Shown piece by piece: positions 1-35,032 of a stretch of DNA of 37,870 nucleotides; position 1 is the stretch's first letter; the number at the start of each line of letters is the position of its first letter. A program made the translations under genes and the position numbers. The notes beneath the pieces are model-generated. The model did not search any database. It was not told the DNA's origin and was given only the letters and a program-made list of their open reading frames with translations. The DNA lies in IMG/VR virus record IMGVR_UViG_3300032177_001611, positions 1-37,870 of that record. One strand, written 5' to 3'. This DNA comes from a virus.

Positions 1-184
1 CTTCTTCTACCAGTGAGAGGGCTCTCTTGAGCTGGTCGGCCTTCGACTCGTAAAACTTGTCGGAGACGAGAGAGCAGGATGCAAGACCGATGAGGTCCGT
101 TTTCTTTGAGGTGGCATACACGCGCTCACAGTGGAAGTTTCTGATAACTTCTGGCTCTGGTTTCTTTTCGTTGAATGCGCTCAT
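1..184 (-). CDS. Partial hypothetical protein (N-terminal 61 residues)
   Basis: The reading frame starts at an ATG at 184-182 and runs off the left edge of the window, so only the first 61 residues are seen (begins MSAFNEKKPEPEVIRNFHCE). An AAAAAGGAGAGACCG ribosome site lies directly before the ATG, and a plausible promoter (TTTACT-17-TATTAT) precedes it. The visible part is charged and soluble-looking, with no signal peptide or membrane segment. I do not recognise the family. It has its own promoter, separated from the upstream deacetylase gene by 143 bp, so it may begin a new transcription unit. Confidence 0.75.
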   Translation of the reverse strand, partial: MSAFNEKKPEPEVIRNFHCERVYATSKKTDLIGLASCSLVSDKFYESKADQLKRALSLVEE

Positions 185-327: not shown

Positions 328-1038
328 TCATATTATCTTCGAGTATAGTCCCATGGCCTCGGCGTACTCGCACCTAGCTTCCATGCCACGGTATTTTGCC
401 CATTTTTTAATTCCTTCTTCCGATATGTAACTGTCTTTTGCTGCCGCTTGTATTGGGAAGCATGTTCTGTAGATTTCCAATTTTCTTTCTAGTAATTCTT
501 CTGAAAGTTTTACGTATACTATCGGTTTCATGTCGGTGTGAGGACCTGTGGAGTGTATGTACGAAGGGTTGTCGATTATGTATATGTTTTCTGGATAATA
601 CGACATGGTAGGTCTTGTTGCGGCCACCACTGCTTCCCAGACGGCCGTGTGGTCGTGGTGGTAAGACGGTCCTTGCGTGAGGATGACATGTGGTTCCAGT
701 TCTTTTATGATCTTTTCTATCACTGAGACAAGCCTGTTCTTAGGACACGTGTCCAGACAAGACTCCATGTCAAACGGAAGGTCAACAGAAGACCTAGTTC
801 CTCTTATGAAGCATCCTTCCATGATGTCAACGTACTTTTTGTAGTCTATTATCCTTTGTTCTCTTGAGATGTAGCCCATGTGGTTAAGGATGAGACTGGA
901 TGCTGTCACCAGAACGAAATAGTATTGATAGTCATTCTTGTATTTTTCTAGGAATCCACCGGCAAACAGCATGCTGTCGTCGCTGTGAGCCTCTATCACT
1001 AGAAGTCTTTTCTTTTTAAAGGGTCCAGTTTCCATCAT
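328..1038 (-). CDS. PIG-L/LmbE family zinc-dependent deacetylase
   Basis: The 236-residue product has the two hallmark motifs of the PIG-L (GlcNAc-PI de-N-acetylase, LmbE) family: AHSDD at residues 17-21 (usual AHPDD, metal ligands and catalytic Asp) and HHDHT at 127-131, supplying the third metal ligand. Family members (MshB, BshB, PIG-L) remove an acetyl group from N-acetylglucosamine-type sugars using Zn2+. The length is normal for a single-domain cytoplasmic member. The start overlaps the end of the LpxD-like gene by 23 bp, so the two are probably translated together and may act in sequence on one amino sugar. The substrate is not predictable. A strong downstream promoter suggests that this gene ends its unit. 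Confidence 0.85.
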   Translation of the reverse strand: MMETGPFKKKRLLVIEAHSDDSMLFAGGFLEKYKNDYQYYFVLVTASSLILNHMGYISREQRIIDYKKYVDIMEGCFIRGTRSSVDLPFDMESCLDTCPKNRLVSVIEKIIKELEPHVILTQGPSYHHDHTAVWEAVVAATRPTMSYYPENIYIIDNPSYIHSTGPHTDMKPIVYVKLSEELLERKLEIYRTCFPIQAAAKDSYISEEGIKKWAKYRGMEARCEYAEAMGLYSKII

Positions 1039-1744
1039 GTTTCTTGTAGAACTTTGCAGGCGATCCCATGTAGATGCCAGGTTCCGTTATTTCTTTCGTT
1101 ACGCAGGATCCCATTCCTATGACAACGTCGTCGCAGATCTTCACTCCCTGCTTTATGGTTGCGTTGGCGCCTATCCAGCACCTCTTGCCGATGTGGCAGG
1201 ATCCGCAGATGACCGCTCCGCTGGCTATAACGGTTCCGTCACCGGTGACAGTGTTGTGACCGACAGTCACCCTTCCGTCTATCTGCACGTAGTTTCCTAT
1301 CACGGTGGAATCCAGTTCGGCTCGCTCTATGAGGGTCAATGCTCCAACGTTCACCCCGTAGCCGAACACGATGTTTCCAACATGTTTCATTTGAACTCTC
1401 TCTCCGCATGGCCCGACTGCTATTCTGATTCCTTCAAAGATTACAGAACTTGGGTGGATGAAGAGGTTTCTGCCGTATACGTTTTCTGCCGGCTCTCTGT
1501 TTTTGTTTATCTTGTTATGGATCAAGGTAAATTCGTAATCGACGTGTTTTGTTCTGTGGTAGATAATATTTTTTGGAACAAATCTTCCTGAGAGGTCAAG
1601 GTCTTCAGGGATTATTATCAATACGTTCTTGTCGGAACCCATCGCTCGATAGAAGTACTTGAAATTTCTTGCGAACGTTATTGCTCCGTCTTTAAGGTTT
1701 TCTATGGAACATGTTTTGTTGTACCCTTCAAATATGTCACTCAT
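1016..1744 (-). CDS. LpxD-like left-handed beta-helix N-acyltransferase
   Basis: The 242-residue protein has two parts. Residues about 13-50 (IENLKDGAITFARNFKY and following) resemble the N-terminal substrate-binding domain of LpxD. Residues about 95-225 are hexapeptide repeats of the left-handed beta-helix type (for example VTVGHNTVTGDG, HIGKRCWIGANATI). His163 in VGHN sits where the LpxD catalytic His lies in IAHN, in an otherwise well-aligned stretch ending VTKEI. LpxD moves an acyl chain from acyl-ACP to the amino group of a UDP-glucosamine derivative. I prefer the ATG at 1744, which overlaps the helicase stop by 8 bp, over an in-frame TTG at 1750. It overlaps the downstream PIG-L deacetylase. 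Being a sugar O- or N-acetyltransferase of the PglD type is the main alternative. Confidence 0.75.
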   Translation of the reverse strand: MSDIFEGYNKTCSIENLKDGAITFARNFKYFYRAMGSDKNVLIIIPEDLDLSGRFVPKNIIYHRTKHVDYEFTLIHNKINKNREPAENVYGRNLFIHPSSVIFEGIRIAVGPCGERVQMKHVGNIVFGYGVNVGALTLIERAELDSTVIGNYVQIDGRVTVGHNTVTGDGTVIASGAVICGSCHIGKRCWIGANATIKQGVKICDDVVIGMGSCVTKEITEPGIYMGSPAKFYKKHDGNWTL

Positions 1745-3146
1745 TTTCAAACATCTCGTCTCCGGTTTCGTCTTTCTTTTTTGTGGAGAAACTTCCGAAA
1801 CCTATTTCTGTAAAATCGTCTAATGGTACTTGGTCCGATTCTCTTATTATCATGTTCTTGTAGTCTATCTCGCAATGTATCTCTACTCTTGCCTGACCGC
1901 TCCGGTTCTTTCCTACGTACAGTCTGAGCCTGTTCTGTTCAAACTCTTCTCTTGATTGTCTCACTACGAGCACTAGATCGGCGATCATGGCCTTCTCCCA
2001 GGACTCGGAGAGGTTAGAGATGTCCGATTCTGTCCTTTGAAAACCTGCCCTGTTGATCTGAGAAGCTGTCCAGACAGGGCAGCCAAACTCTGCTGCCAGA
2101 GCTTTTAGTTGCCTGTATATGAGTCCTAGGTCGTTTCTTCTTTCTGTGTTTTTGACGGTGGACTTCATGAGGTCGGCGTAGTCGACTATGATGAGGTCCG
2201 GTTTCCTGTTACTGGCCATGATTTTTCTTTTTATGTACATGGCCAACATGTCTTTTGTTAGTACTTCGGGAGGGAATTCCTTGATAAGAAGGTAACCCTT
2301 GTGTTCTTTCATAAATTTATCCACGTATCCTTGGATGACTTCCGGTGGGCTATTTATGATGTCCATCATAGGTCTGCCAGAAATGAGGCAGTCGTACCTC
2401 TGCATAACTTCTGAAGTGGTCATTTCCAGGGAGAAGTGGTACACGGTCTTATCGTGCATCAGAGCTTCTTTTCCTATGTTCACAAGAAACAACGACTTTC
2501 CAAAACCAGGAGGCGCCGCTATGAAGTAGAACTTGCTTGGGTACGCTCCTCCGTTCAGAATGTGGTTCATCTTTTCTGACCAGGTAGGAACTATCTTGTC
2601 CTTGTTCTCAGAGAGCTTGTCTCTTTCTCTCTTGGTAAAGTCGTTCAGCTCCATTTCTCCGAAATCTGCGTCAAAGGTCAGTTCGTTCAGGAGGTTGTAC
2701 AGCCTGGACTTTATGTTTGAAAGGTCCTTCTCTTCGATGAGACCGGCGTTCATGTTCGTGTCGGCCGTTTTTACCGCTCCGACTATTTCTTGCGCGTTCC
2801 TAAGGATTACGAGGGATTTTATCCTTTCGATGAAGTAGTCGATTGTGGAATTTTCGTTTATGTCGTTGGATTCTCTTCTCTTCATCCCCTTTTCTATGGC
2901 TTTGGCTATCTTGGAATTCTTATACTTTTCTATGATGTAAAATTTGTCTTTGTTGTTAAGGCGGTCGCGTATGACGTTGACAAAATCCGTCTGCATTTCT
3001 GGATCAGACAGAATTTGTTCGTCGAAGAAATTAAACTGAAATGCCTTCTCGAACACAAATAGATGGTACTCGTTCACCGACTCCAACAATGTGTTCAAGA
3101 GGTTCACGAACATGTCGTTGGAGAGGTTGATGTATTTATAAATCAA
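1737..3146 (-). CDS. dnaB: DnaB/gp41-like replicative DNA helicase
   Basis: This 469-residue superfamily 4 helicase unwinds duplex DNA ahead of the fork as a hexamer. Residues about 1-160 are a helical N-terminal region. The RecA-like motor has Walker A APPGFGKS at 211-218, SLEMT at 239-243, Walker B DLIIVDYAD at 317-325 and TASQINR at 360-366, as in DnaB and T4 gp41. The start is a TTG at 3146 preceded by GAGGTGA; the first ATG is 11 codons further on. The leader before it contains a tRNA-like structure. It probably works with the primase at 17538-18557, although the two genes are far apart. Confidence 0.9.
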   Translation of the reverse strand: MIYKYINLSNDMFVNLLNTLLESVNEYHLFVFEKAFQFNFFDEQILSDPEMQTDFVNVIRDRLNNKDKFYIIEKYKNSKIAKAIEKGMKRRESNDINENSTIDYFIERIKSLVILRNAQEIVGAVKTADTNMNAGLIEEKDLSNIKSRLYNLLNELTFDADFGEMELNDFTKRERDKLSENKDKIVPTWSEKMNHILNGGAYPSKFYFIAAPPGFGKSLFLVNIGKEALMHDKTVYHFSLEMTTSEVMQRYDCLISGRPMMDIINSPPEVIQGYVDKFMKEHKGYLLIKEFPPEVLTKDMLAMYIKRKIMASNRKPDLIIVDYADLMKSTVKNTERRNDLGLIYRQLKALAAEFGCPVWTASQINRAGFQRTESDISNLSESWEKAMIADLVLVVRQSREEFEQNRLRLYVGKNRSGQARVEIHCEIDYKNMIIRESDQVPLDDFTEIGFGSFSTKKKDETGDEMFENE

Positions 3147-4200: not shown

Positions 4201-4354
4201 TTGGTTTCTCCTTTTTGGCAGTATAGTCACATTGTAGCGTGATTTCGTGCTTTTGACACATAGTTTGTTTAATTATGAATCCGTTAACATAGACGCCGTC
4301 TAGTGGCATCTGAACTTTGTTTTCTATTCTTTTATTGATCTCTATTATTTTCAA
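4187..4354 (-). CDS. Overlooked small gene (55 aa), TTG start
   Basis: An open frame starts at a TTG (4354-4352) with GGAG ten bases before it and runs 55 codons to a TAA at 4187-4189. It overlaps the gene upstream by 23 bp and the gene downstream by 14 bp, filling what would otherwise be a 130-bp gap in a tightly packed array. The product reads like a real protein (DGVYVNGFIIKQTMCQKHEI), with two Cys residues. An internal ATG 15 codons in would give a 40-residue form. No family is recognised. Confidence 0.55.
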   Translation of the reverse strand: MKIIEINKRIENKVQMPLDGVYVNGFIIKQTMCQKHEITLQCDYTAKKEKPNGNA

Positions 4355-5174
4355 TTTTTAAGAGCTCCATTTCAAAAGGAACCACGTCCTTCTTCAGAGT
4401 AAACACTTTTTCCCTAAGCATGTTAAGGTATTTTTTTGGTCTCTGTTTGTTCATGAGTTTTTTGTAATCTACGGAACTATCACTGTTCTTCTTGTCTTTA
4501 AACAACACGTGACTGAACCCGTTCATCACAAACTCAAGAGAAGGAAGTTCCTTGAACTTTTCGACCTTTGTTATTTCCACAAAAACTAGTTCTTGAGAAT
4601 TGTTTTTCTTGTCAAATTCTCTGACCCTTACGATCTCCTTCTTGTTCTCTTTGTTTACTTTAAACAGCATCAGGGTGCAAAGTGCCTCCCCTAGGATTTT
4701 TTGTGCCTGCAGTTTGCTACCGCAGTCCATGGTGTAGATGTCACTGCTGCTCTTCTTGTGGTGGTGAATGCTGGTGTTGCTGATGTTCTCCCTGCTTTCA
4801 AAGTTGATGATTCTCATGGTCCCTGGTTTGATCTCTTCGATCTTTTTCCAACAGTACTGTCCGTGTTCGTAACAGTATACCTGCGTTCCTTCCGCGAACA
4901 TACCCATAAAACCAAGCTCGTCTTCTATACTGTACATCATCTTTTCGCCCGTATAAACTATTCTAGACGGGTACAGCGGCGAATGAGAACAGCTCAGTAG
5001 GGCCACGGAAGACAGGTCCATGTTTACTGGAACTCCGGTCTTGATTGACTCTATCTGGTTGTTGTACAGGACCTTATTTAAGAGCTTGAACAGTTCCATG
5101 CTCCTGAACCTTGGTCCGCCCCATCGATTAGCATAGATGGAAACTGTCTGTAAGAGACTTTCTATGTGAATCAT
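4332..5174 (-). CDS. Hypothetical protein (280 aa)
   Basis: The gene begins MIHIESLLQTVSIYANRWGG and directly follows the stop of the 74-aa gene. There is no signal peptide or membrane segment. The middle has several Cys and His residues (VYCYEHGQYCWKK near residue 100, TSIHHHKK near 138), which could bind metal but do not form a standard zinc motif. The C-terminal third is very rich in Lys. I do not recognise the family. It sits in an unidentified block between the Pol I-type polymerase and the helicase. Confidence 0.75.
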   Translation of the reverse strand: MIHIESLLQTVSIYANRWGGPRFRSMELFKLLNKVLYNNQIESIKTGVPVNMDLSSVALLSCSHSPLYPSRIVYTGEKMMYSIEDELGFMGMFAEGTQVYCYEHGQYCWKKIEEIKPGTMRIINFESRENISNTSIHHHKKSSSDIYTMDCGSKLQAQKILGEALCTLMLFKVNKENKKEIVRVREFDKKNNSQELVFVEITKVEKFKELPSLEFVMNGFSHVLFKDKKNSDSSVDYKKLMNKQRPKKYLNMLREKVFTLKKDVVPFEMELLKIENNRDQ

Positions 5175-5402: not shown

Positions 5403-5699
5403 TTAAAGTCCGGTTCTACCCAGCGTCAGAGGACCGGCTATGGCTACCGGACCGCCTTTCTTGTTGTTGTACGACCTCTGGTTTATTCCCATCTGGCTCG
5501 CGTTCATGTTAATTGCGCCTGAAAAATTTATCACCTGATTTTGTTTGTGTAAAAACGCTTTGCATTTCTTGTTAGAACACATTCCTGCAATTACTGTGTC
5601 GACATTGACACCAGGTTCATACGCATTAAAATCACTAAAACTGATGAGTATTTCCGTAAATTTCCCGCACTTGTCGCACTTAAATTCATAAATTGGCAT
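5403..5699 (-). CDS. FmdB-type zinc-ribbon protein
   Basis: The N-terminus MPIYEFKCDKCGKFTE matches the start of FmdB-family regulatory zinc ribbons (typically MPIYEYxCxxCG). The second ligand pair is probably C41 and C46 in MCSNKKC, giving a CxxC...CxxxxC ribbon. The remaining 50 residues (QVINFSGAINMNASQMG, then a Gly/Pro-rich end) are unlike the family. An AAGGAGG ribosome site precedes the ATG, which overlaps the end of the polymerase gene by 14 bp. The role of phage copies is unknown; nucleic-acid or protein binding next to the polymerase is an inference. Confidence 0.75.
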   Translation of the reverse strand: MPIYEFKCDKCGKFTEILISFSDFNAYEPGVNVDTVIAGMCSNKKCKAFLHKQNQVINFSGAINMNASQMGINQRSYNNKKGGPVAIAGPLTLGRTGL

Positions 5700-7899
5700 G
5701 TACTACCTCCTTCATATCGTGAAAGTTTTTGCCTGCGTAAATTTTGTATCTGATGTTTGGTGTCTTCACTGCCATTCCGACAGCAGGTGACTTACCCAAG
5801 ACCTGTTCGTTGAACGTGTTGACTCCTTCCAAGATTATTCCTGGAATCCTTGTGAAAGCCACTTCTATTTCGTCACAGACGTCCTTCATGTGTTCGTCTG
5901 GAACGTTAAAGGTTGCGGAGTCGTGGCAGGTGTTTACCACGTTCACTCCGTACTCTTTCTTTGTCCTATTTATGAATTCTATCATATTTAGCAACATCAT
6001 GTCCGAAGAGGTCGATTGTATCGGCATGTTGTGAGCACTTAGAAAACTCCTCCAGTAATTGTCAGAACTCATGTCGTCTTCGGAATACCTTCTCTTTCTG
6101 AATGACGCTCCGAATATCATTTGGTTCGCCTTAAGGAATTCTCCTACTTTGACCTTCATCTCTTCCATCTTCGGGTACCTCTCGTAAAACAAATCGATGT
6201 ACTTTTGGGCATCCTGTTCGGAAGAATTCAGTTTCTTTGCGAGAGTCGTCTTGCTTGCCAGGTATATCATTGATATTGTGATCTGCTTGGCAATCTCTCT
6301 TTCCTCGTCGTCTATGTCTTCCTTTTTGAAGATGGTCTTTGCAAAGTGCCTGTAATAATCCGGGTTATCATTCAAATCGTCGATTAAATGATAATCCTGA
6401 CAGAGAAGGGCAGCGACCGCCACCTCAGCTTGACTCATGTCAACGTGTACCAAACTGTGTTTCTCGCTATCTGACAGGAAATATTTTGACGTAGGACTCC
6501 CCATCTTCATCTTGTTCAACTGTGGTTCGGCGTACTGCAGCCTTCCGGTCTTTGTGGCGAACACGAAGATCTCCGGGTGTACCCTTCCGTCGGCGCTTTC
6601 TGTTGACATCTTCATGGTGGGTCTTACTATGTCGTCTATCTCCCATGCCTGAAGGCTCATGAGTCCTTTCGCCATCTCTTCGTACGGAGCGACCTTCCAC
6701 CCTGTCCATTGGATGAACAGTTTGTCTAGTTGGACTATATGTGACACTTTCTTGTAATGTTTTACGCTTATTTCGTCCGCTTGGATCTCTCTGTTTATCT
6801 TTAGGAAGAGACTGTGTTCGGCTGCGGCGTCTTCTGCTGCATATTTCAACGATTTAAGCGCACAGTCCAAACATTCATCTGAGGTCATCGTCTGCCAGTT
6901 CTCTATGTATCTTATGTACTGTTTGACGTAGGCGTACTGGGAGTAGTTCAGGAAGTCTCTGGAGACCGACTTAAGGTTGTAACCTTCGATTTGTCTGTTC
7001 TCAGAAATTATGTGAAGCATTTGCATGGCGTCTTTTATGATGTTGTTCTCCAAGAAGTCTTCGAACGATCTTCCAAAAAAATTACATACTCCAAAGATGT
7101 CAAAATCGCACTTCCATGCTGTGAACGTTTTCTTCTTGTCGAATATGTACTTTTCAAGCCTACTAAGGACAGCGATGAGGTTATCGCCTTTTATGTCGTG
7201 CATTACCCCTGGTAATCCGAGATTTATGGCATGACCGTAACCGTCTTCCCAGCTGAAAGAGGCTATGTATATGTGGTGTTTTGTTTTGTCCCATATCTGG
7301 AGACCGGCCGTTTCAAAGTCAATGGCCACTGGGTAATAGTCCGGTAGTGCAAACAGCTCGTCGATCACCTGCATGACCTCGGAGAACTTCATTGCCATGT
7401 TGACCTTGGGCGAGAACCCGTTCTCCACTATATCAACTTTTGGATTCTTGTGTATGTTCTTGCTCTTTGACGTGTAGACCTCTTCCGGACCTGCCTGAAA
7501 GCTTCTTGTGGCCCTCTTGAGACTTTCCAGGCAAGACTCGAATGCCATGAAGGTCTCAGGTTTGGCCATTGTGAAGTCAAGCGGTGGCATGAAGGCGATG
7601 AAGTAGTGTATCCCGCTGCTCTTGATGAAGTAAGAGAACTTGTGAACCTCTTTCCTGTCTTCTTTGTAGAACTCGTTTATGTCGACAAGGAACTTCTTGT
7701 ACAGCGAGGCTCCGAACACAAATAGGATCTCGTCGTTCTGTACCCTGTAGTTCTTGAGACTGTTGACGGCCACAAGGTTGTTGGCTATCTTGAGGTTGAT
7801 CTCGACGCTGTGTTTCTTCTTTATTTCTTTGAAGATCTCCACCAGCTTGTCAAGGTTCTTCTTTTCCTTGGGCTTCTCGCATATTATGTTTATCAGCAT
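5686..7899 (-). CDS. polA: Family A DNA polymerase with 3'-5' exonuclease
   Basis: The 737-residue polymerase has a proofreading domain with Exo I DFETAG (194-199), an Exo II-like CDFDIFG (264-270) and Exo III around AEDAAAEH (355-362). The polymerase domain shows TGRLQ (451-455), motif A VDMSQAE (486-492) and motif C CHDSATF (658-664), with metal-binding Asp487 and Asp660. Motif B is degenerate: EIAKQITISMIYLAS keeps the Lys and Tyr, but the usual NFGxxYG is TISxxYL, and motif C has HDS for HDE. Residues 1-135 replace the 5' nuclease; FVFGASLYKKF and a later HYFIAFMPPLDF faintly resemble a uracil-DNA-glycosylase-like fold. It overlaps its neighbours at both ends and coexists with DnaE, so it may be the repair or lagging-strand enzyme. 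Confidence 0.92.
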   Translation of the reverse strand: MLINIICEKPKEKKNLDKLVEIFKEIKKKHSVEINLKIANNLVAVNSLKNYRVQNDEILFVFGASLYKKFLVDINEFYKEDRKEVHKFSYFIKSSGIHYFIAFMPPLDFTMAKPETFMAFESCLESLKRATRSFQAGPEEVYTSKSKNIHKNPKVDIVENGFSPKVNMAMKFSEVMQVIDELFALPDYYPVAIDFETAGLQIWDKTKHHIYIASFSWEDGYGHAINLGLPGVMHDIKGDNLIAVLSRLEKYIFDKKKTFTAWKCDFDIFGVCNFFGRSFEDFLENNIIKDAMQMLHIISENRQIEGYNLKSVSRDFLNYSQYAYVKQYIRYIENWQTMTSDECLDCALKSLKYAAEDAAAEHSLFLKINREIQADEISVKHYKKVSHIVQLDKLFIQWTGWKVAPYEEMAKGLMSLQAWEIDDIVRPTMKMSTESADGRVHPEIFVFATKTGRLQYAEPQLNKMKMGSPTSKYFLSDSEKHSLVHVDMSQAEVAVAALLCQDYHLIDDLNDNPDYYRHFAKTIFKKEDIDDEEREIAKQITISMIYLASKTTLAKKLNSSEQDAQKYIDLFYERYPKMEEMKVKVGEFLKANQMIFGASFRKRRYSEDDMSSDNYWRSFLSAHNMPIQSTSSDMMLLNMIEFINRTKKEYGVNVVNTCHDSATFNVPDEHMKDVCDEIEVAFTRIPGIILEGVNTFNEQVLGKSPAVGMAVKTPNIRYKIYAGKNFHDMKEVVHANL

Positions 7900-8240
7900 T
7901 TTGTTTTTTGTTCCATATAGTCGATAAATTTATATATTGTGTCGAACCTCTTTGATTCGTCACGGCAATCAACGAATTCGCATCCTAAATAGTCACAGCC
8001 CACTTGTTTGCAATACTCTATGCATTCTTCGTCCGCAGATTTCTTGCTGTCTTCCATCTTTCCTCTTACCATGTCAAGAGTTATTTTGTCACCCGGTTTT
8101 AGATTGAACAACTTGTGATACGTCTTGCCATGCCAATGCATTAGTTCGTTTCCATTATCAAAATCTCTAACGTATATTCCTATTTCCATAATGGTTGCGA
8201 TTACTAGCTTGGGTTTCTCTTTGTATCCCCAGTTTATCAT
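7893..8240 (-). CDS. Hypothetical protein between the two polymerases (115 aa)
   Basis: The start overlaps the DnaE stop by 4 bp (ATGA) and the end overlaps the Pol I-type start by 7 bp, so it is locked into the polymerase cluster. The N-terminal half looks like a small beta domain (LVIATIMEIGIYVRDF, LKPGDKITLDM). The C-terminal half is Cys-rich (C73, C77, C82, C87, C92 and the terminal Cys by approximate count), spaced too irregularly for a named zinc finger. No family recognised; a polymerase accessory role is only suggested by position. Confidence 0.7.
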   Translation of the reverse strand: MINWGYKEKPKLVIATIMEIGIYVRDFDNGNELMHWHGKTYHKLFNLKPGDKITLDMVRGKMEDSKKSADEECIEYCKQVGCDYLGCEFVDCRDESKRFDTIYKFIDYMEQKTKC

Positions 8241-11200
8241 TCTTTGATTTCCTTGACGAACTTTATGTTTTTTACCTGAGCAAAGTTGTTGCTCTTCGAG
8301 ATGGTCCCGTAATAGATGTTATTATACACTGTTCTGCCATCTTTTGTACTATCCTCGAACGCTTCGGCGTATTTCTCCCAGAAGTACACCCTTGGGAGGG
8401 TCGTTACGCCGTCAGATATTTCAAACGTGTGGTACGCCTTCCCCTTAGCTGTCTTTTTCTTGAGGATGCTTTTTATCCTAAATAAGGAGCGTATCTGTGG
8501 CTCTTCTTCGAGTTCGTCTAGGTTGTTAAGTATGATGTCTTTCTTCTTTTCCTTTATGGACTTCTTCAGCATTGCGAAAAAGGTGATCTCTGTGAAACTG
8601 ACATTGGCAAATTCGGACTCGTTCTTGATGATCGCGTTGAGGTCCAGTGTCACCTCTTCGTCTTTGTACTTTCTCTTTTTAACGAAGTAGTTATACATAT
8701 CGGACCTATTCTTTCCTTCAGAGATGGAGTCAAGAGCTCCGGAAAGGATGAGTGCCATGATGACTCTCTTGTTCTTGACGTATTTGTTCTCTGAGCTTAT
8801 CAGGTCGTCAATGGAGGTGAACGGTCTGAGTTCCATGATGGCCTTTGCGGCCTCTTCGGATATTCCTTTTATGAGGGACAGTCCGAAACGCAGGTTGTTG
8901 TCGTCTTCTATTTCAAAGTTCGTATTGGACTTATTCACGTCGACCTGTAGAACCTTCACGTCTCTTCTTGTCTTGAACCTTTCTTCTTCGTAGTAGTAGA
9001 CCGGATTTGTCATGATGTGTGAGATGTACTTTCCTACAGTAGAGGAACCGTACTTGTCTTCTTTCGATCTGGATGTGTTGTTCAATAGAGAACAGTAGAA
9101 CTCTAATCCATAGTGGGCTTTCATCCAGAATTCTCTAAACGAAGTGATTGTGTAGGCGTCACTGTGTGCCTTGTTGAAGGCGTACTTGGAGAAACTGAAT
9201 ATGAGGTCCCACAGTCTCAGGACTTCTTCTTCAGGCATTCTCTTCATTGCGTTGTTTACAAACTTATCTTTCCAAGACATGACTCTGTCTATTCTCATGT
9301 CTTCGAATTTTTTAGACGCTTCTTTCTTTGACAGGTCCTTTCTGACTTTATTCACTTCTATTGCGGTAAATTCGCCAAGTTCTACGAAACACCTCATGAA
9401 TTGTTCCTGGTACGTTAGAACGCCGTACGTTTTGCTCAGGATGTGTTTGTACGAGTCGTGGATGTCCCATTTGCCGTCTCTTTTTCTTTTGGCAAACTCC
9501 CTGTGCATTCCCATCTCAAGAGGACCAGGGCGGATAAGGGCGTTGATGGCCGACAGGTCGTCAAATGTGTCAGGCTGTATCATTGCCATGGTTTGGTTTG
9601 CAAGTTTGCTCTCGAACTGAAAGATTCCGGCAGTGTCCGTTCTCTTGGCAAGTTCGTAGACCTCAGGGGCTTCGTACGGCACGTCGTCCCAGTTTATGTC
9701 AATACCGTGTCTTTTCTTTATCAGGTCCATGGTATCGGTCACGACCTGAAGGTTGTTTAGACCAAGAACGTCAAATTTAACGAAACCTTGTGCGGACAGT
9801 TCGTGGTAGTCACCGCCTTCCGTGTTGGCAGTGACTATGTTCTTTGACGCTCTCACGAGCGGTATCCATTCGCTCAGGTCGACCGAGGACACCACGAGAC
9901 CGGCGGCGTGCATTCCTGTTGATTTTAGGGAGTTCTTTATCCTCTTGAACAGCCTCTTAACATCCGGGTACTTATCGAGGAAGTCCTGTACTTTCGGGAA
10001 CATGGTACACAGTTCCTCGTAAGAAAGGTCGTCTATGGTCATCTTCCTTCCCTCTTCTCCTCTGAGGAAATGGGGAAGGCCGGCGGTGAGCGAGTTTGAC
10101 TCCTGAAAATCCACGTTGTACATCTTGGCGGAGTCCTTGATGGCCGTCTTTACCTTTGAGACGAGGTAGGTACCGATGGACGCAACCTTTGACCTTCCGT
10201 ATTTCTCGGTCAGGTACTCCTTGACGGCGTCTTTTACTTTTGGCTCGAAGTCCATGTCAACGTCTGGAAGGTCTCCTCTTCCTTCGTCGATGAACCTTTC
10301 AAACATTAGTTCGAACTTGATTGGGTCTATGTCTGTTATCCCCAATAGGTAATTCACTAGACTTCCTGCGGATGAACCTCTTCCTGGACCGGCTGCGTAC
10401 TTACCGTATGTTTTTGTCACCCAAGAGTATAAGTCTTCCAATATGAGGATGTAGTCTACAAAACCAAGTTTTACGATAGTGTCGTATTCTTGGCGGCACC
10501 TCTGCTTGTACACCGGGTTTTTGCTGAGGCCTTTGGCTACCAGGGCGTCGGCAACTTTCCGGTACAATATCTTATCGCTGTTCTCAAAGAGCTTGGGAAG
10601 CTTGATGGAGGTGTCCAGTTCTATGTTGTCTATCCTAAGGAATAGTTCGTAGTTGTTCTTGATGCATTCCTCCATGATTTCTTTACAGTCAGAGTTGTAA
10701 GAAGCGTTCATTATGTCTTCTCGTGTCTTCAGGTATAGGTCGTTGACAGAGAACTCCCAGAATTTCTCTTCGGTCTCTTCGTTCTCTATTTCTCCGCTCT
10801 CTTCTCCTTCTTCTTTGTCTTCTTCTTTCGTATACGTCTTCTTGGACTGGAGCATGAGAATGGCTTCGTGTAACTTTTGGTCCTCTGGGTACAGGTAATG
10901 AGCGTCGGAGGTGAGAATGGTCTTAACGCCGTGTTCTTTGGCTATGTCGTAGAGTTTCGGATTCAATTCGAACTGGACGCCATAGTTTATCGACATAAGT
11001 TCTATGTAAAAGTTCTCGCCAAACGTCTCCTTGTACTTCTTGACAAAACTGTCCGCCCTTACTTTTTCTCCTGAGGAAAGGAACCTTGGAAGTTCTCCTC
11101 CGGCACATGCAGTAGAAACGATGATTCCTTCCTTATTTTCCGCAAGAAGGTTAAAATCTATCAGCGGGAACTTGTAGAACGAGTTCATGTAGGCTTCTGA

Positions 11201-11566
11201 CGTGATCTTAAATATGTTCTTGAGACCCTGGTAGGTCTGTGCCAGAACGAGAATGTGGTTCCTTGGTGAAGAGAATTTTTTTCTCATCTCAACGGCGTTG
11301 TCTTCGTCGGAACCTATCCACGGCATCAGCAGTTTTCTGTCAGGGATGATGTACAGTTCCGCTCCAAATATCGGTTTGATTCCGGCTTTCTTGCACGCCT
11401 CGTACTGCCTGAAGTAACAGCTGATGTTGCCATGGTTTGTCAAAGAACATGCCGGTACGTCATGTTCGACTGCCCATTGGACATGTTCGTCGACAGAACC
11501 CATTCCGTCACGCATAGAAAATTCGTTATGGTTGTGAAACGAAATGAAGGGATACTCTGAGGACAT
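8237..11566 (-). CDS. dnaE: DNA polymerase III alpha subunit (family C, DnaE type)
   Basis: The 1109-residue protein has an N-terminal PHP domain (HNHNEFSMRDG at 11-21, TNHG at 43-46, FGAELY at 67-72, TSDAHYL at 219-225). The palm has GPGRGSSAGSL at 393-403, PDVDMDF at 434-440 with two catalytic Asp, and KFDVLGL at 597-603 with the third. IFQFES (648-653) and FNKAHSDAY (797-805) follow, then a helix-hairpin-helix region and a C-terminal OB-fold (RSLFRIKSILKKKTAKGKAY). It polymerises DNA at the fork. A Glu-rich insert at about 246-268 lies within the PHP/palm link. The start ATG overlaps the kinase stop (TAATG). Phage DnaE is uncommon, and rarer with a family A enzyme beside it. Confidence 0.95.
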   Translation of the reverse strand: MSSEYPFISFHNHNEFSMRDGMGSVDEHVQWAVEHDVPACSLTNHGNISCYFRQYEACKKAGIKPIFGAELYIIPDRKLLMPWIGSDEDNAVEMRKKFSSPRNHILVLAQTYQGLKNIFKITSEAYMNSFYKFPLIDFNLLAENKEGIIVSTACAGGELPRFLSSGEKVRADSFVKKYKETFGENFYIELMSINYGVQFELNPKLYDIAKEHGVKTILTSDAHYLYPEDQKLHEAILMLQSKKTYTKEEDKEEGEESGEIENEETEEKFWEFSVNDLYLKTREDIMNASYNSDCKEIMEECIKNNYELFLRIDNIELDTSIKLPKLFENSDKILYRKVADALVAKGLSKNPVYKQRCRQEYDTIVKLGFVDYILILEDLYSWVTKTYGKYAAGPGRGSSAGSLVNYLLGITDIDPIKFELMFERFIDEGRGDLPDVDMDFEPKVKDAVKEYLTEKYGRSKVASIGTYLVSKVKTAIKDSAKMYNVDFQESNSLTAGLPHFLRGEEGRKMTIDDLSYEELCTMFPKVQDFLDKYPDVKRLFKRIKNSLKSTGMHAAGLVVSSVDLSEWIPLVRASKNIVTANTEGGDYHELSAQGFVKFDVLGLNNLQVVTDTMDLIKKRHGIDINWDDVPYEAPEVYELAKRTDTAGIFQFESKLANQTMAMIQPDTFDDLSAINALIRPGPLEMGMHREFAKRKRDGKWDIHDSYKHILSKTYGVLTYQEQFMRCFVELGEFTAIEVNKVRKDLSKKEASKKFEDMRIDRVMSWKDKFVNNAMKRMPEEEVLRLWDLIFSFSKYAFNKAHSDAYTITSFREFWMKAHYGLEFYCSLLNNTSRSKEDKYGSSTVGKYISHIMTNPVYYYEEERFKTRRDVKVLQVDVNKSNTNFEIEDDNNLRFGLSLIKGISEEAAKAIMELRPFTSIDDLISSENKYVKNKRVIMALILSGALDSISEGKNRSDMYNYFVKKRKYKDEEVTLDLNAIIKNESEFANVSFTEITFFAMLKKSIKEKKKDIILNNLDELEEEPQIRSLFRIKSILKKKTAKGKAYHTFEISDGVTTLPRVYFWEKYAEAFEDSTKDGRTVYNNIYYGTISKSNNFAQVKNIKFVKEIKE

Positions 11567-13389: not shown

Positions 13390-14496
13390 TTATCCTTTCA
13401 CGTTTATGATTGGCGTGATAAAATCCACGACATTTACAACCACGCCCTTCTGTGCGTTCATTACATACTCCAAATCCTTGTAAGCATCGGGAGCCTCGTC
13501 CAGAGTCGTTTCGTTCACATTGGCGAGTATCCCATCCATCTGTGTTTTGAACGTATCTAACGTAATGTTCTTTTTAGCAGCACCTCGGGACATCTTACGG
13601 CCAGCCCCGTGTGAAGCCGAGTTGAGGTACTCCATATTGCCCAATCCTTCAGTAATGTACACGCCTGAAAGCATCGAGCCTGGGATTACACCGAGCTCAT
13701 GTAACCGGGCAGGAGTAGCGCCCTTGCGGTGAAGCACATCACCATTATCAAGAACGGTAGCATGATTGTGATTTTCATTGATATAGTTGAACAGTGTAGC
13801 ATTGTGCCCAACCATGATCTTTACAACCTCCTTCAGCATGTTCTTACGATTATCAAGCGCAAACTTCAAAGCAAAGTTCATGTCCGCCAAATAGGCACGA
13901 CCAAGATCAGAATACAACTCGAAGAACTTGTGGTAAAGCTGATTATCCTTTTTCGCCTCATTCATGTACCACTGAGCGATCTCCCACCCTGGACGTCGAG
14001 ACCCAGAGTGAATAGTGATGAAAACAGTTCCCTTGGCATTATAGCCAATTTCAATGAAGTGATTTCCGCCACCGAGAGTGCCATGCTGCTTAGCAGTCTT
14101 CGCGTTCACCTTGTCGGTTAACTCCTTATCGTTAGACTGAGACCGAAACTGTTCAGGATAAGGATTGTCGTGTTCAGTAAACCCAACAGGGATCTTCTCC
14201 TTGATCAAGTTGAACACTTCAACTCGATCAGCCTGATTGAATCCGTTGATGTCGCTCTGTGGGATTTCATAGCAAATCATCCCGCAACCGATGTCGTAGC
14301 CAACGTATGACGGAGAAATGTGATCTTCTACTAGTGCCACAGCGCCAATGGGCAAATCGTAGCCCTGGTGACAGTCAGGCATGACAGCGATAGTCTTCAC
14401 AAACGGAATGTTTGCGTTGTCGTATATCTGTTGTTGAGCACCCTGCTCAATTTCATTCATTGGAATCAGGGACTTTATTTTGTCCGCATTAGGCAT
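13390..14496 (-). CDS. rtcB: RtcB family RNA-splicing/repair ligase
   Basis: RtcB joins RNA 2',3'-cyclic phosphate (or 3'-phosphate) ends to 5'-OH ends using GTP and Mn2+. The 368-residue protein has MPDCHQGYDLPIG near residue 38, GYDIGCGM with the metal Cys near residue 73, GGGNHFIEIG near 142, IHSGSRRPG near 157, and the nucleophile motif SASHGAGRKMSRGA near 294. It is in the shorter class of about 370-400 residues. In phage infection such a ligase can repair tRNAs cut by host anticodon nucleases. All ten arginines I could read use CGN codons, whereas neighbours use AGA/AGG, a sign of recent acquisition. No kinase/phosphatase partner is adjacent. Confidence 0.93.
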   Translation of the reverse strand: MPNADKIKSLIPMNEIEQGAQQQIYDNANIPFVKTIAVMPDCHQGYDLPIGAVALVEDHISPSYVGYDIGCGMICYEIPQSDINGFNQADRVEVFNLIKEKIPVGFTEHDNPYPEQFRSQSNDKELTDKVNAKTAKQHGTLGGGNHFIEIGYNAKGTVFITIHSGSRRPGWEIAQWYMNEAKKDNQLYHKFFELYSDLGRAYLADMNFALKFALDNRKNMLKEVVKIMVGHNATLFNYINENHNHATVLDNGDVLHRKGATPARLHELGVIPGSMLSGVYITEGLGNMEYLNSASHGAGRKMSRGAAKKNITLDTFKTQMDGILANVNETTLDEAPDAYKDLEYVMNAQKGVVVNVVDFITPIINVKG

Positions 14497-27976: not shown

Positions 27977-29749
27977 TTAGATAAACTTTTTATAGTCAAT
28001 AAGTTCTGCTGTATCTGGTAACAGGAATCTTATGTGTTCGTTTCTATTTGTATCCTGTTGTTCCTTATATACAGAGAGCCGGTCGTCATACATTGTCTTT
28101 TTATTGTCTGGTTGCGGGTGTAATGTCACTCCAGTTCCAGGGAACTGGTCAGCGTTTAGGAATCTAAAGCTAGAGACCTGCTTTTGGTTTATCAGGATGA
28201 ACGTTCCAATGGCAACCGCGATGATGGAGTCGTCCTTTTTGCCGGCTTCCGCTTCTGGTTTGTTCTTTTCAGAGTAAACAAAGCTTAGGGCCTGGTCCAA
28301 CCATATCTTGCTGTACACGACCAACATGTTGTTCCTAAGAACTTCAGACAGGTTGTCCAGAATGAGAGGCCTGGTGGCAGAATTTGTCACGAACCCCGGT
28401 TTTCCGTCTGTTCCGTGGTATATATTAGGGTACTTGTCAAGCACTTTGGTGCCGTCCTGTAACAACCCGTTGACGGCCCAGTAACACAGAAGGTGACCGT
28501 GGTTGTTCCTTTCGATGGCCAACTGTGGGTACCTGTAGAGGGAACCCAGGTGGTACAGGAGTCTCCAGAACTTTGGCATAGGTATCTTCTCGCTTATTTC
28601 GGCGCACATCTCTATCCTTACTGGGTCCTTGTGCAGTCTTAACATGTAGGCAGCAGACGAGGAACCGGTAGGGTTTCCTTCCGCCGGATCAACACAGAGT
28701 ATGTGTCTAAACTTTGGATCCGGATCGAATGTCTTGTAGATCTTTATCTTCTCCTGTTCCACTTTCTGCCATTCGACGACCTTGTTGGCTTCTATCCAGA
28801 GACTGATTGACTTTATCATGTCCCTGTCAAAGAAGGGTTTTCCGGACGAGAGGAAACAGGACTGGTCGTCTTCTGGGTACTCTTGGAGGAACTTTTCCTT
28901 TAGGGTCTGTTGTTTTGACCTTCTCCACGCCATCTGTTGGAGGTTAGTACCGTGAACGACCATGAAATCTTTTTCTTCGTCGGTCAGAGTCTCCTGTATG
29001 TAGGCCTGTTCTTCGTTCCCTATTTCGAACTTGTACTCGGCGTGATCGAACCAGCGGTAGAAGTGAGGATAAGGAACGTCATTTATCTTTCTCTCTATCT
29101 CCGAAGTCCTGACGGCTTCCATGTAACTGTCGTGGAAGTGGTTGTACCCGTTCGCAGTGGTCTCGAAGATGATGACACCGTTCTCCATTGGGACGGTCTG
29201 AATGAGCGACGGAAGGATCTCTTCTGGTTTGTCCCAGAAAGCAAATTCTGAACAGTGGAGTAGGTTGATGGTAGTTCCTCGACCAAACCCGGTGGATCCG
29301 GCGGTACCGATGAAGATCTTCGAATTGATCGTCTCGAAGACGATTTCTCTCCTTGACGAATACTTGCTGACCGGTCTTATCTCGTCGGGGAGATTGTCGT
29401 ACATGAGTTTCGTGATTTCGAAGATTCTGGCAGTAGACTCTGCGTCGTGAGCGATGATGACCGCGACGGTGTTGGGAACCAAAATGGCTTCTGCCAAGAA
29501 CAGGGCACAGATCATAGTGGTAAAACCAAGCTGCCTTGGCTTCAGGATTATGTGCTGCCTGATCCCCTTTTTTCTTAGGTCCAGGTACGTCGCGTAAAAC
29601 TGTTCCTGTATGTCGTTGAACAGAAACGGTATGATCTGGCGCTTCTTGTCCTTGATGGAGATGAAGGTCTCAGTAAAGAACCTGTAATCGTTCAGACACA
29701 GACCGACTATGTTTTCTTGGGTGTATTCGGGGACGGTCTTACTTGTCAA
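27977..29749 (-). CDS. terL: Terminase large subunit
   Basis: The 590-residue packaging motor has the variant Walker A KPRQLGFTT near residue 70, the Walker B-like LLHCSEFAFWDKPEE near 160 and coupling motif ETTANG near 195. The C-terminal RNase H-like nuclease shows VDPAEGNPTGSS near 350, IERNNHG near 410 and KDDSIIAVA near 510. It cuts concatemers and pumps DNA into proheads. The start appears to be a TTG at 29749 with AAGGAA upstream, overlapping the small-subunit gene by 11 bp. No ATG lies near. Confidence 0.93.
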   Translation of the reverse strand: MTSKTVPEYTQENIVGLCLNDYRFFTETFISIKDKKRQIIPFLFNDIQEQFYATYLDLRKKGIRQHIILKPRQLGFTTMICALFLAEAILVPNTVAVIIAHDAESTARIFEITKLMYDNLPDEIRPVSKYSSRREIVFETINSKIFIGTAGSTGFGRGTTINLLHCSEFAFWDKPEEILPSLIQTVPMENGVIIFETTANGYNHFHDSYMEAVRTSEIERKINDVPYPHFYRWFDHAEYKFEIGNEEQAYIQETLTDEEKDFMVVHGTNLQQMAWRRSKQQTLKEKFLQEYPEDDQSCFLSSGKPFFDRDMIKSISLWIEANKVVEWQKVEQEKIKIYKTFDPDPKFRHILCVDPAEGNPTGSSSAAYMLRLHKDPVRIEMCAEISEKIPMPKFWRLLYHLGSLYRYPQLAIERNNHGHLLCYWAVNGLLQDGTKVLDKYPNIYHGTDGKPGFVTNSATRPLILDNLSEVLRNNMLVVYSKIWLDQALSFVYSEKNKPEAEAGKKDDSIIAVAIGTFILINQKQVSSFRFLNADQFPGTGVTLHPQPDNKKTMYDDRLSVYKEQQDTNRNEHIRFLLPDTAELIDYKKFI

Positions 29750-32473: not shown

Positions 32474-33955
32474 ATGTTAGATTTTAACGGATTCGGGATT
32501 GGGTCCGGCCAAGACGTTCAGGAGCTGAACAAGGCGCTGGAAGGTGCCGCGGCTCTTGGTCTCGCAGGCGGAGTCTCAACCGCGGGTATCGCAATTGACG
32601 GTACCACCGGCGGCGCGGCACTTAGGGTGCAGTCGCTTGACAGTTCGCTGAAGGTCATCACCTTCACCGACAAGCACATCAACTTCTGGAAAGACATTCC
32701 TAAGACGCCTGCTTACAGCACCGTTGAGGAATACAACCAGCTGACCTCTTACGGAACTCAGACCGGTGGGTTTGTGACGGAAGGCGAACTTCCTTACTCA
32801 ACCACGTCGGACTACTTACGTAAGGTAGCCCTGGTCAAGTACGTGGGAACGACCCGTTCGGTCTCCCACCCTATGACCCTCGTTCGTACGATGGTTCCTG
32901 ACGTTATCGCTCAGGAGAACAGCAACGGCATCATGTGGATGCTGCGCCAGATCGAAAACGCCCTCTTCTGGGGCAACGATAAGGGCCGTGACGCCGCAGA
33001 ATACGTGGAGTGGGCGGGCCTCGATCAGCAGATCGGTGGAGCGACCGGAATCGGTACCGGTGGTGGAAACAACTACGACATGCGCAACGTGAACCTGGCC
33101 ACAACGCCTTTCACGACCGTCGTAAACTCTCTGGCTCAGACAGTAGTCGACCAGTTCGGTTTCCCAACTGACATCTACCTTCCGTACCAACTGTTGGCGA
33201 AGATCAACGACGAGTTCGCGGGCACTGCCGCTCAGCGTATCGTCCTTCCTACGCCTCAGGGCAACACCCAACTCAACATCAACGTGGACAGTCTGATGAC
33301 CCAGGCGGGAAAGGTCAACCTGAAGCCGACCTACTTCCTCCAGAAGACAAGGACTGCTCCTACGGCCTCCAAGATCCTGAAGAGCGACACGATGGCCGCC
33401 GCAAAGGCGCTTACCGTCACCGCTTCTAACGCTGGTACCGTAGTGACCGCTCCTGGAGCCGGTTGGTACAGGGTCCAGTACACCTGGGAGAACAAGTACG
33501 GTGAGACGCTTGCCATCAACAGCGGACAGCCTTTCGTGACCGCTACCAACACCTCCGCTGCGTATACCGTCAGCGCCTCTCAGACGATCAGAATGACCCT
33601 CAGCGGTCCTGATGCGACGGCTGCGGACAACGCGGAGTACCTTAACCTGTTCGTCAGCGAACCGGCGGCCTCAGAAGTTCTTGCGGAAGCGGCCACCTGT
33701 TACTGGGTGCAGAGACTTCCTCTTACCAATGCCGGTCAGACCTTTGACTGGGACGGAAAGAGACTTCCCAACACCTACACGGCGTTCATCGGACAGAACA
33801 CCTCGGACGTACTGACGTTCAGGCAGCTTGCACCGCTGGTAAAGATGGACCTTGCCACCATCGCACCGGCCTACAAGTGGATGATCTTGCTTTACGGGAT
33901 GCCAATTATCTTTGTCCCACAAAAGTGGACGAGAGTGATAAACATCAGGCTCTAA
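32474..33955 (+). CDS. Major capsid protein (HK97-type fold expected)
   Basis: The 493-residue protein is in the standard place after protease and scaffold, with an extra-strong ribosome site (AACGGAGG) and a terminator after it, as expected for the most abundant virion protein. Residues about 1-55 precede the shell domain and contain GGVSTAGIAIDGTTGGAALR (32-51), shared with the protease; part may be cleaved off. WKDIPKTPAYSTVEEYNQLT (about 69-88) is typical of this capsid family. Residues about 305-405 (VTASNAGTVVTAPGAGWYRV onward) look like an Ig-like surface insertion. Arginines at codons 116-255 are all CGT/CGC, while those before and after are AGA/AGG. Confidence 0.88.
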   Translation: MLDFNGFGIGSGQDVQELNKALEGAAALGLAGGVSTAGIAIDGTTGGAALRVQSLDSSLKVITFTDKHINFWKDIPKTPAYSTVEEYNQLTSYGTQTGGFVTEGELPYSTTSDYLRKVALVKYVGTTRSVSHPMTLVRTMVPDVIAQENSNGIMWMLRQIENALFWGNDKGRDAAEYVEWAGLDQQIGGATGIGTGGGNNYDMRNVNLATTPFTTVVNSLAQTVVDQFGFPTDIYLPYQLLAKINDEFAGTAAQRIVLPTPQGNTQLNINVDSLMTQAGKVNLKPTYFLQKTRTAPTASKILKSDTMAAAKALTVTASNAGTVVTAPGAGWYRVQYTWENKYGETLAINSGQPFVTATNTSAAYTVSASQTIRMTLSGPDATAADNAEYLNLFVSEPAASEVLAEAATCYWVQRLPLTNAGQTFDWDGKRLPNTYTAFIGQNTSDVLTFRQLAPLVKMDLATIAPAYKWMILLYGMPIIFVPQKWTRVINIRL

Positions 33956-34078: not shown

Positions 34079-35032
34079 ATGTCAGACTACACGCCATCCG
34101 GCTTCAAGTACGAAAACACTTTTCACAACCACTCGCACACCATGTCGGAGATCTCGGACTTTAGCGGAGCTTCCGGTGCGCCTGGAATAGGCACGCAAGG
34201 AATTTCCGGTCTGTCAGGTTTCTCCGGTTATTCTGGAATGTCGGGTGGAGCCGGTGCGACCGGCGGTTCCGGTTACTCCGGCTTCAGCGGTTACTCAGGA
34301 ATGGGTGCTTCTGGCTACTCGGGCATCATAGGCGGTTCCGGTTACTCCGGCATCGTGGGCGGTTCCGGTTACTCCGGCATCGTTGGAACTTCTGGATATT
34401 CCGGCAAGTCAGGTTACTCTGGCATCGTCGGTAGATCCGGTTACTCTGGTTTCTCTGGGGACTCGGGTTACTCCGGTATCGTAGGAATTTCTGGGTATTC
34501 CGGTAAATCAGGTTACTCTGGCATCGTCGGAACTTCCGGTTATTCTGGTATCGTTGGAACTTCCGGTTACTCTGGCTTCTCAGGAGAGAGTCTTGGCGAA
34601 TCAGGTTACTCCGGTATCGCAGGCAGTTCCGGTTACTCCGGAATCTTGGGTCTCTCTGGGTACAGCGGTGTGACGCTGGCTTCAGGTTATTCTGGTATTG
34701 CTGGCACTTCCGGTTATTCTGGAGCGACGAGCGCGTCCGGTTATTCCGGCGTTTCTCCTGCTTCCGGTTACTCCGGCATAGCAGGCAGTTCCGGTTACTC
34801 CGGTTTTGCAGGTGCTAAGGTGACAGGCACGTTCACAGCAACTGGCGGTGCGACCTCCATAGTTGCCACTGCTTCCGCAGGGACTGGTAACAAGATCTTC
34901 TTGACGCCGACTTCTGCCGCGGCTGCAGGCCTTAACGCTTACATCTCGGCGATCAGCAACGGGGTAAGTTTCACGGTCGCGCACGACACAGCGGCCGGAA
35001 CCGAAACCTTCAACTACGTAATATTCGTTTAA
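34079..35032 (+). CDS. Collagen-like virion protein
   Basis: The 317-residue protein has a short N-terminal region (about 1-28), then about 215 residues of Gly-X-Y triplets dominated by the unit SGYSGIVG, with a few breaks (such as GESLGESG). It ends in a 70-residue C-terminal domain (VTGTFTATGGATSIVAT ... FTVAHDTAAGTETFNYVIF). Phage collagen-like segments form trimeric stalks in fibres or head decorations. There is almost no Pro; Ser and Tyr fill the X/Y places. A CTAACGGAGG ribosome site matches that of the capsid gene. The C-terminal domain recurs as the next gene, which suggests a capsid- or trimer-binding module. Confidence 0.82.
   Translation: MSDYTPSGFKYENTFHNHSHTMSEISDFSGASGAPGIGTQGISGLSGFSGYSGMSGGAGATGGSGYSGFSGYSGMGASGYSGIIGGSGYSGIVGGSGYSGIVGTSGYSGKSGYSGIVGRSGYSGFSGDSGYSGIVGISGYSGKSGYSGIVGTSGYSGIVGTSGYSGFSGESLGESGYSGIAGSSGYSGILGLSGYSGVTLASGYSGIAGTSGYSGATSASGYSGVSPASGYSGIAGSSGYSGFAGAKVTGTFTATGGATSIVATASAGTGNKIFLTPTSAAAAGLNAYISAISNGVSFTVAHDTAAGTETFNYVIFV
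34231..34815 (+). repeat. Tandem GGTTACTCCGG-type coding repeats
   Basis: The collagen-like segment is encoded by many near-identical 18-base units built around TCCGGTTACTCCGGCATCGT, with blocks such as 34326-34385 almost unchanged between copies. Such DNA can gain or lose units by slippage or recombination, so the stalk length probably varies between isolates. Confidence 0.8.

Follow-up and report, generated by a model that had tools for sequence, protein, structure and literature searches.

In the tunicamycin (i.e. TunE/TunC) and teicoplanin-type antibiotic pathways, a PIG-L type deacetylase frees the amine of GlcNAc and an N-acyltransferase re-acylates it; to our knowledge, the TunC and teicoplanin-type acyltransferases are not LpxD-like. 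Enzymes of the NeuD/PglD/VioB group N-acetylate amino sugar nucleotides, and BshB acts as a deacetylase after BshA. LpxC and PIG-L enzymes have unrelated folds. For LpxD, H239 is described as the catalytic base and the amide of G257 as the oxyanion site (PMC6286764). According to the same source, F41 and Y47 sandwich the uracil and N44 binds the pyrophosphate, with F41A raising the acceptor KM 29-fold and Y47A having little effect; His276 contacts the alpha-phosphate and H276A lowers kcat 32-fold (PMC6286764). ACP is reported to be bound by the C-terminal helix bundle of LpxD (PMC6820557), and lpxD appears among reported viral auxiliary metabolic genes (PMC10284932, PMC8401523). No report of a PIG-L/LpxD-like gene pair in phages was found in the open-licence literature.

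The window (i.e. the whole stretch of DNA that was analysed) is a viral contig of 37,870 bases, probably a fragment, corresponding to positions 1 to 37,870 of IMG/VR record IMGVR_UViG_3300032177_001611. A sequence-only reading of this DNA had proposed that overlapping genes for a PIG-L deacetylase and an LpxD-like N-acyltransferase form an amino-sugar re-acylation pair. Both open reading frames were present on the minus strand as claimed (acyltransferase, 1744 to 1016; PIG-L, 1038 to 328), as was their 23-bp overlap, which shortens to 20 bp if PIG-L begins at its second ATG (i.e. the start used in relative L003). An overlap was kept in L003 (20 bp) and in relative L018 (1 bp). The minus-strand order was a DnaB-type helicase, the acyltransferase, PIG-L and a TROVE/Ro60-like gene, with the end of the helicase gene overlapping the start of the acyltransferase gene by 8 bp (1737-1744). 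Placement of the pair after a helicase gene suggests early expression. The features of the locus are as follows.

1737-3146, minus strand: DnaB-type replicative helicase, directly upstream of the acyltransferase (DnaB_C, E 2.8e-30)
1016-1744, minus strand: LpxD-like hexapeptide N-acyltransferase gene, 242 aa (TIGR01853, E 1.8e-33, below the curated cut-off)
1481-1744, minus strand: LpxD-like N-terminal domain of the uridine-binding type, residues about 1-88 (hhalign, VIA-align)
1655-1675, minus strand: F24-x-x-N27-x-x-Y30 motif, counterpart of E. coli LpxD F41/N44/Y47 (alignment with 42 LpxDs)
1040-1471, minus strand: left-handed beta-helix, residues about 92-235, with a GSPA loop at its end (hexapeptide, TIGR01853 and structure matches)
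1256-1258, minus strand: H163, counterpart of the E. coli LpxD catalytic base His239 (His in 42/42 aligned LpxDs and in the phage rows)
1145-1147, minus strand: G200, at the position of the invariant LpxD His276 (His in 42/42 LpxDs; Gly in the window and L018)
1016-1038, minus strand: 23-bp overlap of the acyltransferase and PIG-L genes, counted from the first PIG-L ATG
328-1038, minus strand: PIG-L family deacetylase gene, 236 aa (PF02585, E 3.1e-10)
976-987, minus strand: HSDD motif (H18, D20, D21), invariant in alignment A4
649-660, minus strand: HHDH motif (H127, D129, H130), all three residues invariant in alignment A4
2-184, minus strand: start of the TROVE/Ro60-like gene downstream of PIG-L, cut by the contig end (complete in L003, 3214-4800)

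The wider genome was compared with known phages. The capsid and terminase genes lie at 32474-33955 and 27977-29749. The major capsid protein was SPO1-like (37-40% identity), its nearest relatives being SPO1-like phages that infect Gram-positive bacteria; its 571 matching records also include a few phages of Gram-negative hosts, with Bacteroides, Thermus and Pseudomonas phages among the matches, and do not fix the host. For the large terminase, the nearest matches were in Roseobacter, Vibrio and environmental phages (24-28%). Judged by these comparisons, this is a mosaic lineage combining an SPO1-like capsid with a differently related terminase, and no close named relative was found. A collagen-like protein with many G-Y-S-G repeats adjoins the capsid genes (34079-35032, plus strand; Pfam Collagen, E 1.7e-22). 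The replication region encodes a phrog_17-type DNA polymerase (5686-7899; Pol I-like by eye), a DnaE-type polymerase of 1109 aa (8237-11566) and, at 4332-5174 on the minus strand, a 280-aa ORF with no Pfam or PHROGs match. The TROVE/Ro60-like protein (E 9.9e-30 in L003) has relatives in 90 phage records and, together with an RtcB RNA ligase (13390-14496; PHROG E 7.1e-104), suggests a phage RNA-repair set. Elsewhere, a 914-aa ribonucleotide reductase frame in L186 (15497-18241) seemed by eye to hold an intein.

The deacetylase of the window scored 41.1 bits against PF02585, above the gathering cut-off of 28.2. The HxDD and HxDH motifs of PIG-L, which we take to be the metal/base motifs with roles carried over from MshB, were both intact, in agreement with the AHSDD and HHDHT motifs first read from the translation; their residues were invariant across the four phage PIG-Ls of alignment A4, in which identity falls to 20%. 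Equivalog scores were all under cut-off for BshB2 (25.5 versus 195.25 bits), BshB1 (18.3 versus 182.5) and MshB (13.6 versus 224.35). A sequence search for solved structures matching PIG-L found none.

Hexapeptide repeats were detected in the acyltransferase (Pfam, E 2.9e-14). The LpxD model TIGR01853 matched residues 90-235 only, at 115.9 bits against a curated equivalog cut-off of 242.5. The NeuD/PglB/VioB model TIGR03570 (E 7.7e-26) was likewise under its cut-off (90.9 versus 160.8 bits) and was outscored by the LpxD model. Residues 91-235 shared 41% identity with Salmonella LpxD, and the E. coli LpxD structure 3eh0 matched with an E of 5.5e-29; VioB and PglD structures also matched. In the alignment with 42 LpxDs, the catalytic-site counterparts were kept, with H163 falling on E. 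coli His239 and G181 on the oxyanion Gly257, while D156 aligned with LpxD D232. The expectation of an LpxD-like beta-helix with its His in place was thus borne out.

As to the proposed LpxD-like N-terminal domain, a Pfam search of the acyltransferase found no LpxD-type N-domain. When the N-domains of the three phage proteins were made into a profile and compared with 76 LpxD N-domains using hhalign, phage residues 8-51 paired with LpxD residues 25-68 (Prob 69, P 4.5e-5), the match stopping at residue 51. None of 400 column-shuffled queries reached this score (best shuffle 23.6, real query 28.95) and the reversed query scored 11.5; the L018 N-domain alone gave a weak score of 17.5. The MAFFT alignment with 42 LpxDs misplaces the later N-domain, and its columns between residues 52 and 90 carry no conclusion. 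A structure model from three alignment rows was poor (pLDDT 45). A model from 45 rows, of which 42 were LpxD, reached a pLDDT of 68 with a good N-domain (10-residue blocks of 74-91 across residues 1-70) and a weak helix (about 50 after residue 150). The top 15 Foldseek rows for this model were all LpxD, just two of them with E <= 0.001, and TM-scores were low. VIA-align placed residues 1-81 onto the LpxD N-domain in the top 11 rows (72-77 residues, rmsd 2.4-2.8 A) with Z of 5.9-7.5, values under 8 being ones that may reflect a common arrangement; the rows after LpxD were MurE, also a UDP-sugar binder (Z 5.2). The LpxD rows in the 45-row alignment make this structural match partly circular, whereas the hhalign comparison is not circular. 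The two comparisons agree on an LpxD-like N-domain, and a simple O-acetyltransferase fold lacking one, which the sequence-only reading had named as the outcome that would count against it, was not what was found.

Comparison with genuine LpxD revealed losses as well. In addition to the Gly in place of His276, Asn233 of LpxD (42/42) was replaced by Gly, the DGFG loop was lost, and the C-terminal ACP-recognition helices were absent, the phage protein stopping 12 residues past the GSPA loop. In L018, N27 was replaced by Lys; with the exchange of His276 for Gly in both lineages, this suggests that UDP binding is weakened or different. A tree was built from three phage proteins, 42 LpxDs, one LpxD-like O-antigen gene and eight other hexapeptide proteins. 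The phage clade (99/95) lay outside the branch holding all 42 LpxDs and a Sphingomonas plasmid gene (L040; 99/99), in a tree that was rooted by midpoint only and contains long branches. The missing ACP-binding helices, the change at His276 and this separate clade indicate, at the level of sequence, that the phage acyltransferase is not LpxD.

Cellular counterparts of the acyltransferase were sought in several scans. A scan of cellular genome contigs with alignment A3 matched 15 stretches and yielded no relatives. With alignment A5, 76 of the 80 loci examined (i.e. the best 80 of 574 relatives) held fabZ and/or lpxA, which is the mark of a lipid A lpxD; PIG-L was seen in none of these 80 using a small profile from six phage PIG-Ls, which may miss distant ones. 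Among the matches listed for 395 Bacteroidota and 398 Pseudomonadota genomes (phylum names of the loci used as centres), none began before query residue 86, and almost every one lay in a frame of at least 300 aa. Together with the separate clade, these starts and frame lengths led to rejection of a captured host LpxD, and a recent capture of host lpxD is not what the tree looks like, within the limits of its long branches and midpoint rooting. High-coverage plasmid matches from Aeromonas (H98) and Fusobacterium (H97) were ordinary LpxD. No cellular member of the acyltransferase subfamily was seen in these searches, a weak indication since they were either very narrow or dominated by true LpxD. 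In Sphingomonas plasmid L040 (4413-6147), an LpxD-like gene is followed by a polysaccharide deacetylase-like protein (by eye) in an acetamidino-sugar cluster, which is a possible cellular parallel using another deacetylase family. A defence system was considered and set aside, with no PADLOC match for four proteins.

Five contigs carrying this acyltransferase, including the window, were recovered from IMG/VR scans; two additional pattern scans returned the same contigs only, with every other locus negative. Identities to the window acyltransferase were 99% for L002, 95% for L003 and 52% for L018 and L019, the last two being identical across the 10,714 bases compared. L018 represents a different phage, with a G+C content of 35% in the fetched locus versus 45% in the window and a differing gene content. 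In each of the five contigs, an overlapping PIG-L gene immediately followed the acyltransferase gene in the same arrangement, a co-occurrence that rests on two phage lineages (n = 2). The search for the same pair in other phage genomes, put forward as a check by the sequence-only reading, was therefore positive in an unrelated phage (L018/L019), and the contrary prospect of two genes that never co-occur in relatives did not materialize. The L018 partner is a genuine PIG-L (PF02585, E 8.2e-8, 33.2 bits), yet the PIG-Ls of the two lineages scored only 0.7-2.7 bits against each other, as compared to 64-82 bits for the window PIG-L against those of three other phages. As acyltransferases with 52% identity have partners with almost no direct similarity, the association has persisted beyond any one partner sequence; the PIG-Ls would be either very far apart or separately acquired, with the acyltransferase keeping one in both cases. 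PF02585 was absent from 21/21 control records with other hexapeptide acyltransferases, several of which are fragments or near-duplicates, and no such acyltransferase was found within about 5 kb of three other-phage PIG-L loci (L010, L011 and L017). Directly after the pair, L018 encodes a GT2 glycosyltransferase (E 2.4e-15) and a methyltransferase, and L003 has a methyltransferase beyond the TROVE gene. Glycos_transf_2, the one glycosyltransferase family searched for, was not matched in the window or its two close relatives, all of which are fragments.

Selection on the pair was assessed by comparing the window with L003. The dN/dS ratios were 0.106 for the acyltransferase and 0.065 for PIG-L; this purifying selection on both genes argues that the pair is not due to chance and, with its conservation, led to rejection of a chance or artefactual pairing. 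DNA identity was 98-100% over the first 160 codons of the acyltransferase and 73-83% beyond, and low identity continued through PIG-L (57-90% in 60-base windows). By this pattern, the acyltransferase C-terminus and PIG-L are one block that was exchanged or diverged together.

The presence of the same coupled pair in a second, unrelated phage indicates that it is probably a real sugar-editing module. Our preferred reading, held tentatively at slightly less than an even chance, is a deacetylation/N-acylation relay on a nucleotide-linked amino sugar, in which a single linked sugar-editing module would be LpxC-LpxD-like in function and use PIG-L chemistry. The genes with their motifs, the domain resemblance, the overlap, the co-occurrence and the selection are observations; the shared substrate of the two enzymes, its UDP linkage, the donor, the product and the target are inferred. 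The two genes would form one translationally linked module. PIG-L, a zinc hydrolase by family, would strip acetyl from an N-acetylated amino sugar. The LpxD-like enzyme, presumably a trimer by analogy with LpxD, would hold the nucleotide-linked sugar through F24/N27/Y30 of its N-domain, a uridine motif that suggests a UDP-sugar, and would transfer a different acyl group onto the freed amine using His163 as base. Acyl-CoA would be a likelier donor than acyl-ACP since the phage enzyme lacks the C-terminal helices with which LpxD binds ACP, and loss of both these helices and His276 suggests an altered acceptor geometry besides a CoA rather than ACP donor. Were the donor acetyl-CoA, removal and return of acetyl on the same amine would be futile; the acyl group would thus have to be something else, or each enzyme would have its own amine. 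The N-acyl sugar nucleotide would finally pass to a glycosyltransferase (phage-encoded in the second phage) for decoration of DNA, virion or host surface. A narrower version, in which a virus-only PIG-L/LpxD-like relay swaps the acetyl of UDP-GlcNAc or a relative and the new sugar decorates the phage's own DNA, is very doubtful.

In a somewhat unlikely alternative, both enzymes belong to one glycan pathway but serve different amines or different stages of it, for example with the acyltransferase N-acetylating an amino sugar nucleotide and PIG-L deacetylating GlcNAc after its transfer. The GSPA loop and the similarity to NeuD/PglB/VioB (i.e. the TIGR03570 match and the VioB and PglD structures) are in keeping with this, as are Vibrio phage PIG-L genes lying beside those for glycosyltransferases, methyltransferases and ParB_N proteins, and the gene table of phage DLP3, which names a BshA-type synthase with PIG-L (PMC7326821). 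The higher score of the LpxD model and the LpxD-like N-domain speak against it, and strict adjacency with overlap suggests consecutive steps.

The Vibrio phage genes occur in operon-like runs (L010, 6007-12013; L011, 5998-11993) of PIG-L, two WbqC-like proteins, a methyltransferase, a glycosyltransferase and a ParB_N protein, with domains checked in L010 only; these runs are possibly another phage glycan or DNA-modification cluster. An announcement of phage DLP5 is said to describe a PIG-L gene in a phage glycan cluster. In the DLP3 gene table, WcaG, WecE and a methyltransferase come after PIG-L and ParBc lies further along, and this PIG-L-to-ParBc stretch resembles the Vibrio phage runs (PMC7326821). 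A different partnership was seen in L017 (4091-5696), where a phage PIG-L gene overlaps a gene for an ATP-grasp ligase (by eye).

It is decidedly unlikely that the pair edits sugars already on phage DNA or a polymer, i.e. a finished glycan rather than sugar nucleotides. SPO1 DNA contains hydroxymethyluracil, and the capsid is SPO1-like. The pair immediately follows the DnaB helicase gene within the replication region, the window encodes a dCMP deaminase and a thymidylate-kinase-like enzyme, and the second phage has ThyX about 1.9 kb upstream of the pair. However, genes for ThyX, deaminase and kinase are widespread in phages, we noticed no nucleobase hydroxymethylase in the 37.9-kb fragment represented by the window, and a polymer substrate needs no uridine-binding N-domain. 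Still less likely are unrelated neighbours with separate functions, adjacent by chance or through general clustering of glycan genes: just two lineages are known, but they share order, adjacency and overlap although their genomes differ and their PIG-Ls have diverged greatly, and PIG-L occurred in 0/21 control records. The host LPS precursor had been listed among possible targets; diversion of lipid A synthesis, with the pair replacing or competing with LpxC and LpxD, has the LpxD-like helix, catalytic His and uridine motif in its favour but is extremely unlikely given a protein lacking the ACP-binding C-terminus and His276, a clade apart from the 42 LpxDs, no lipid A genes nearby in the window and a SPO1-like capsid whose relatives mostly infect Gram-positive bacteria, so that lipid A appears to be the least likely target.

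If the relay reading is correct, the pair would be a compact two-gene route for exchanging the acyl group on an amino-sugar nitrogen, combining an LpxC-unrelated deacetylase with an LpxD-like acyltransferase freed from ACP. New sugar nucleotides and glycans would also arise from it, possibly including restriction-proof DNA sugars and virion or surface glycans. For virome annotation there is a warning, as such proteins can be labelled lpxD and then read as LPS auxiliary metabolic genes.

Among known systems, the clusters of Vibrio phages VH2_2019 and V-YDF132 and of Stenotrophomonas phages DLP3 and DLP5 resemble this locus in having PIG-L with a glycosyltransferase and a methyltransferase; unlike here, the two Vibrio loci examined have no LpxD-like acyltransferase and carry WbqC and ParB_N genes instead. 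The phage enzyme shares with the NeuD/PglD/VioB N-acetyltransferases a hexapeptide helix, a catalytic His and a C-terminal GSPA loop, presumably a feature of acetyl-CoA enzymes, but falls below the TIGR03570 cut-off and has an LpxD-like N-domain; PglD-type phage proteins fall apart from its clade in the tree. Unlike in the tunicamycin and teicoplanin pathways, both genes are phage-borne and overlapping. As in LpxC-LpxD of the Raetz pathway, a deacetylase is proposed to free an amine of a UDP-sugar that an LpxD-type N-acyltransferase then acylates, although the phage deacetylase is a PIG-L. The phage acyltransferase is shorter than the LpxDs used (242 versus 320-372 aa) and lacks the ACP helices, His276, Asn233 and the DGFG loop, whilst keeping the helix and the counterparts of His239, Gly257 and F41/N44/Y47.
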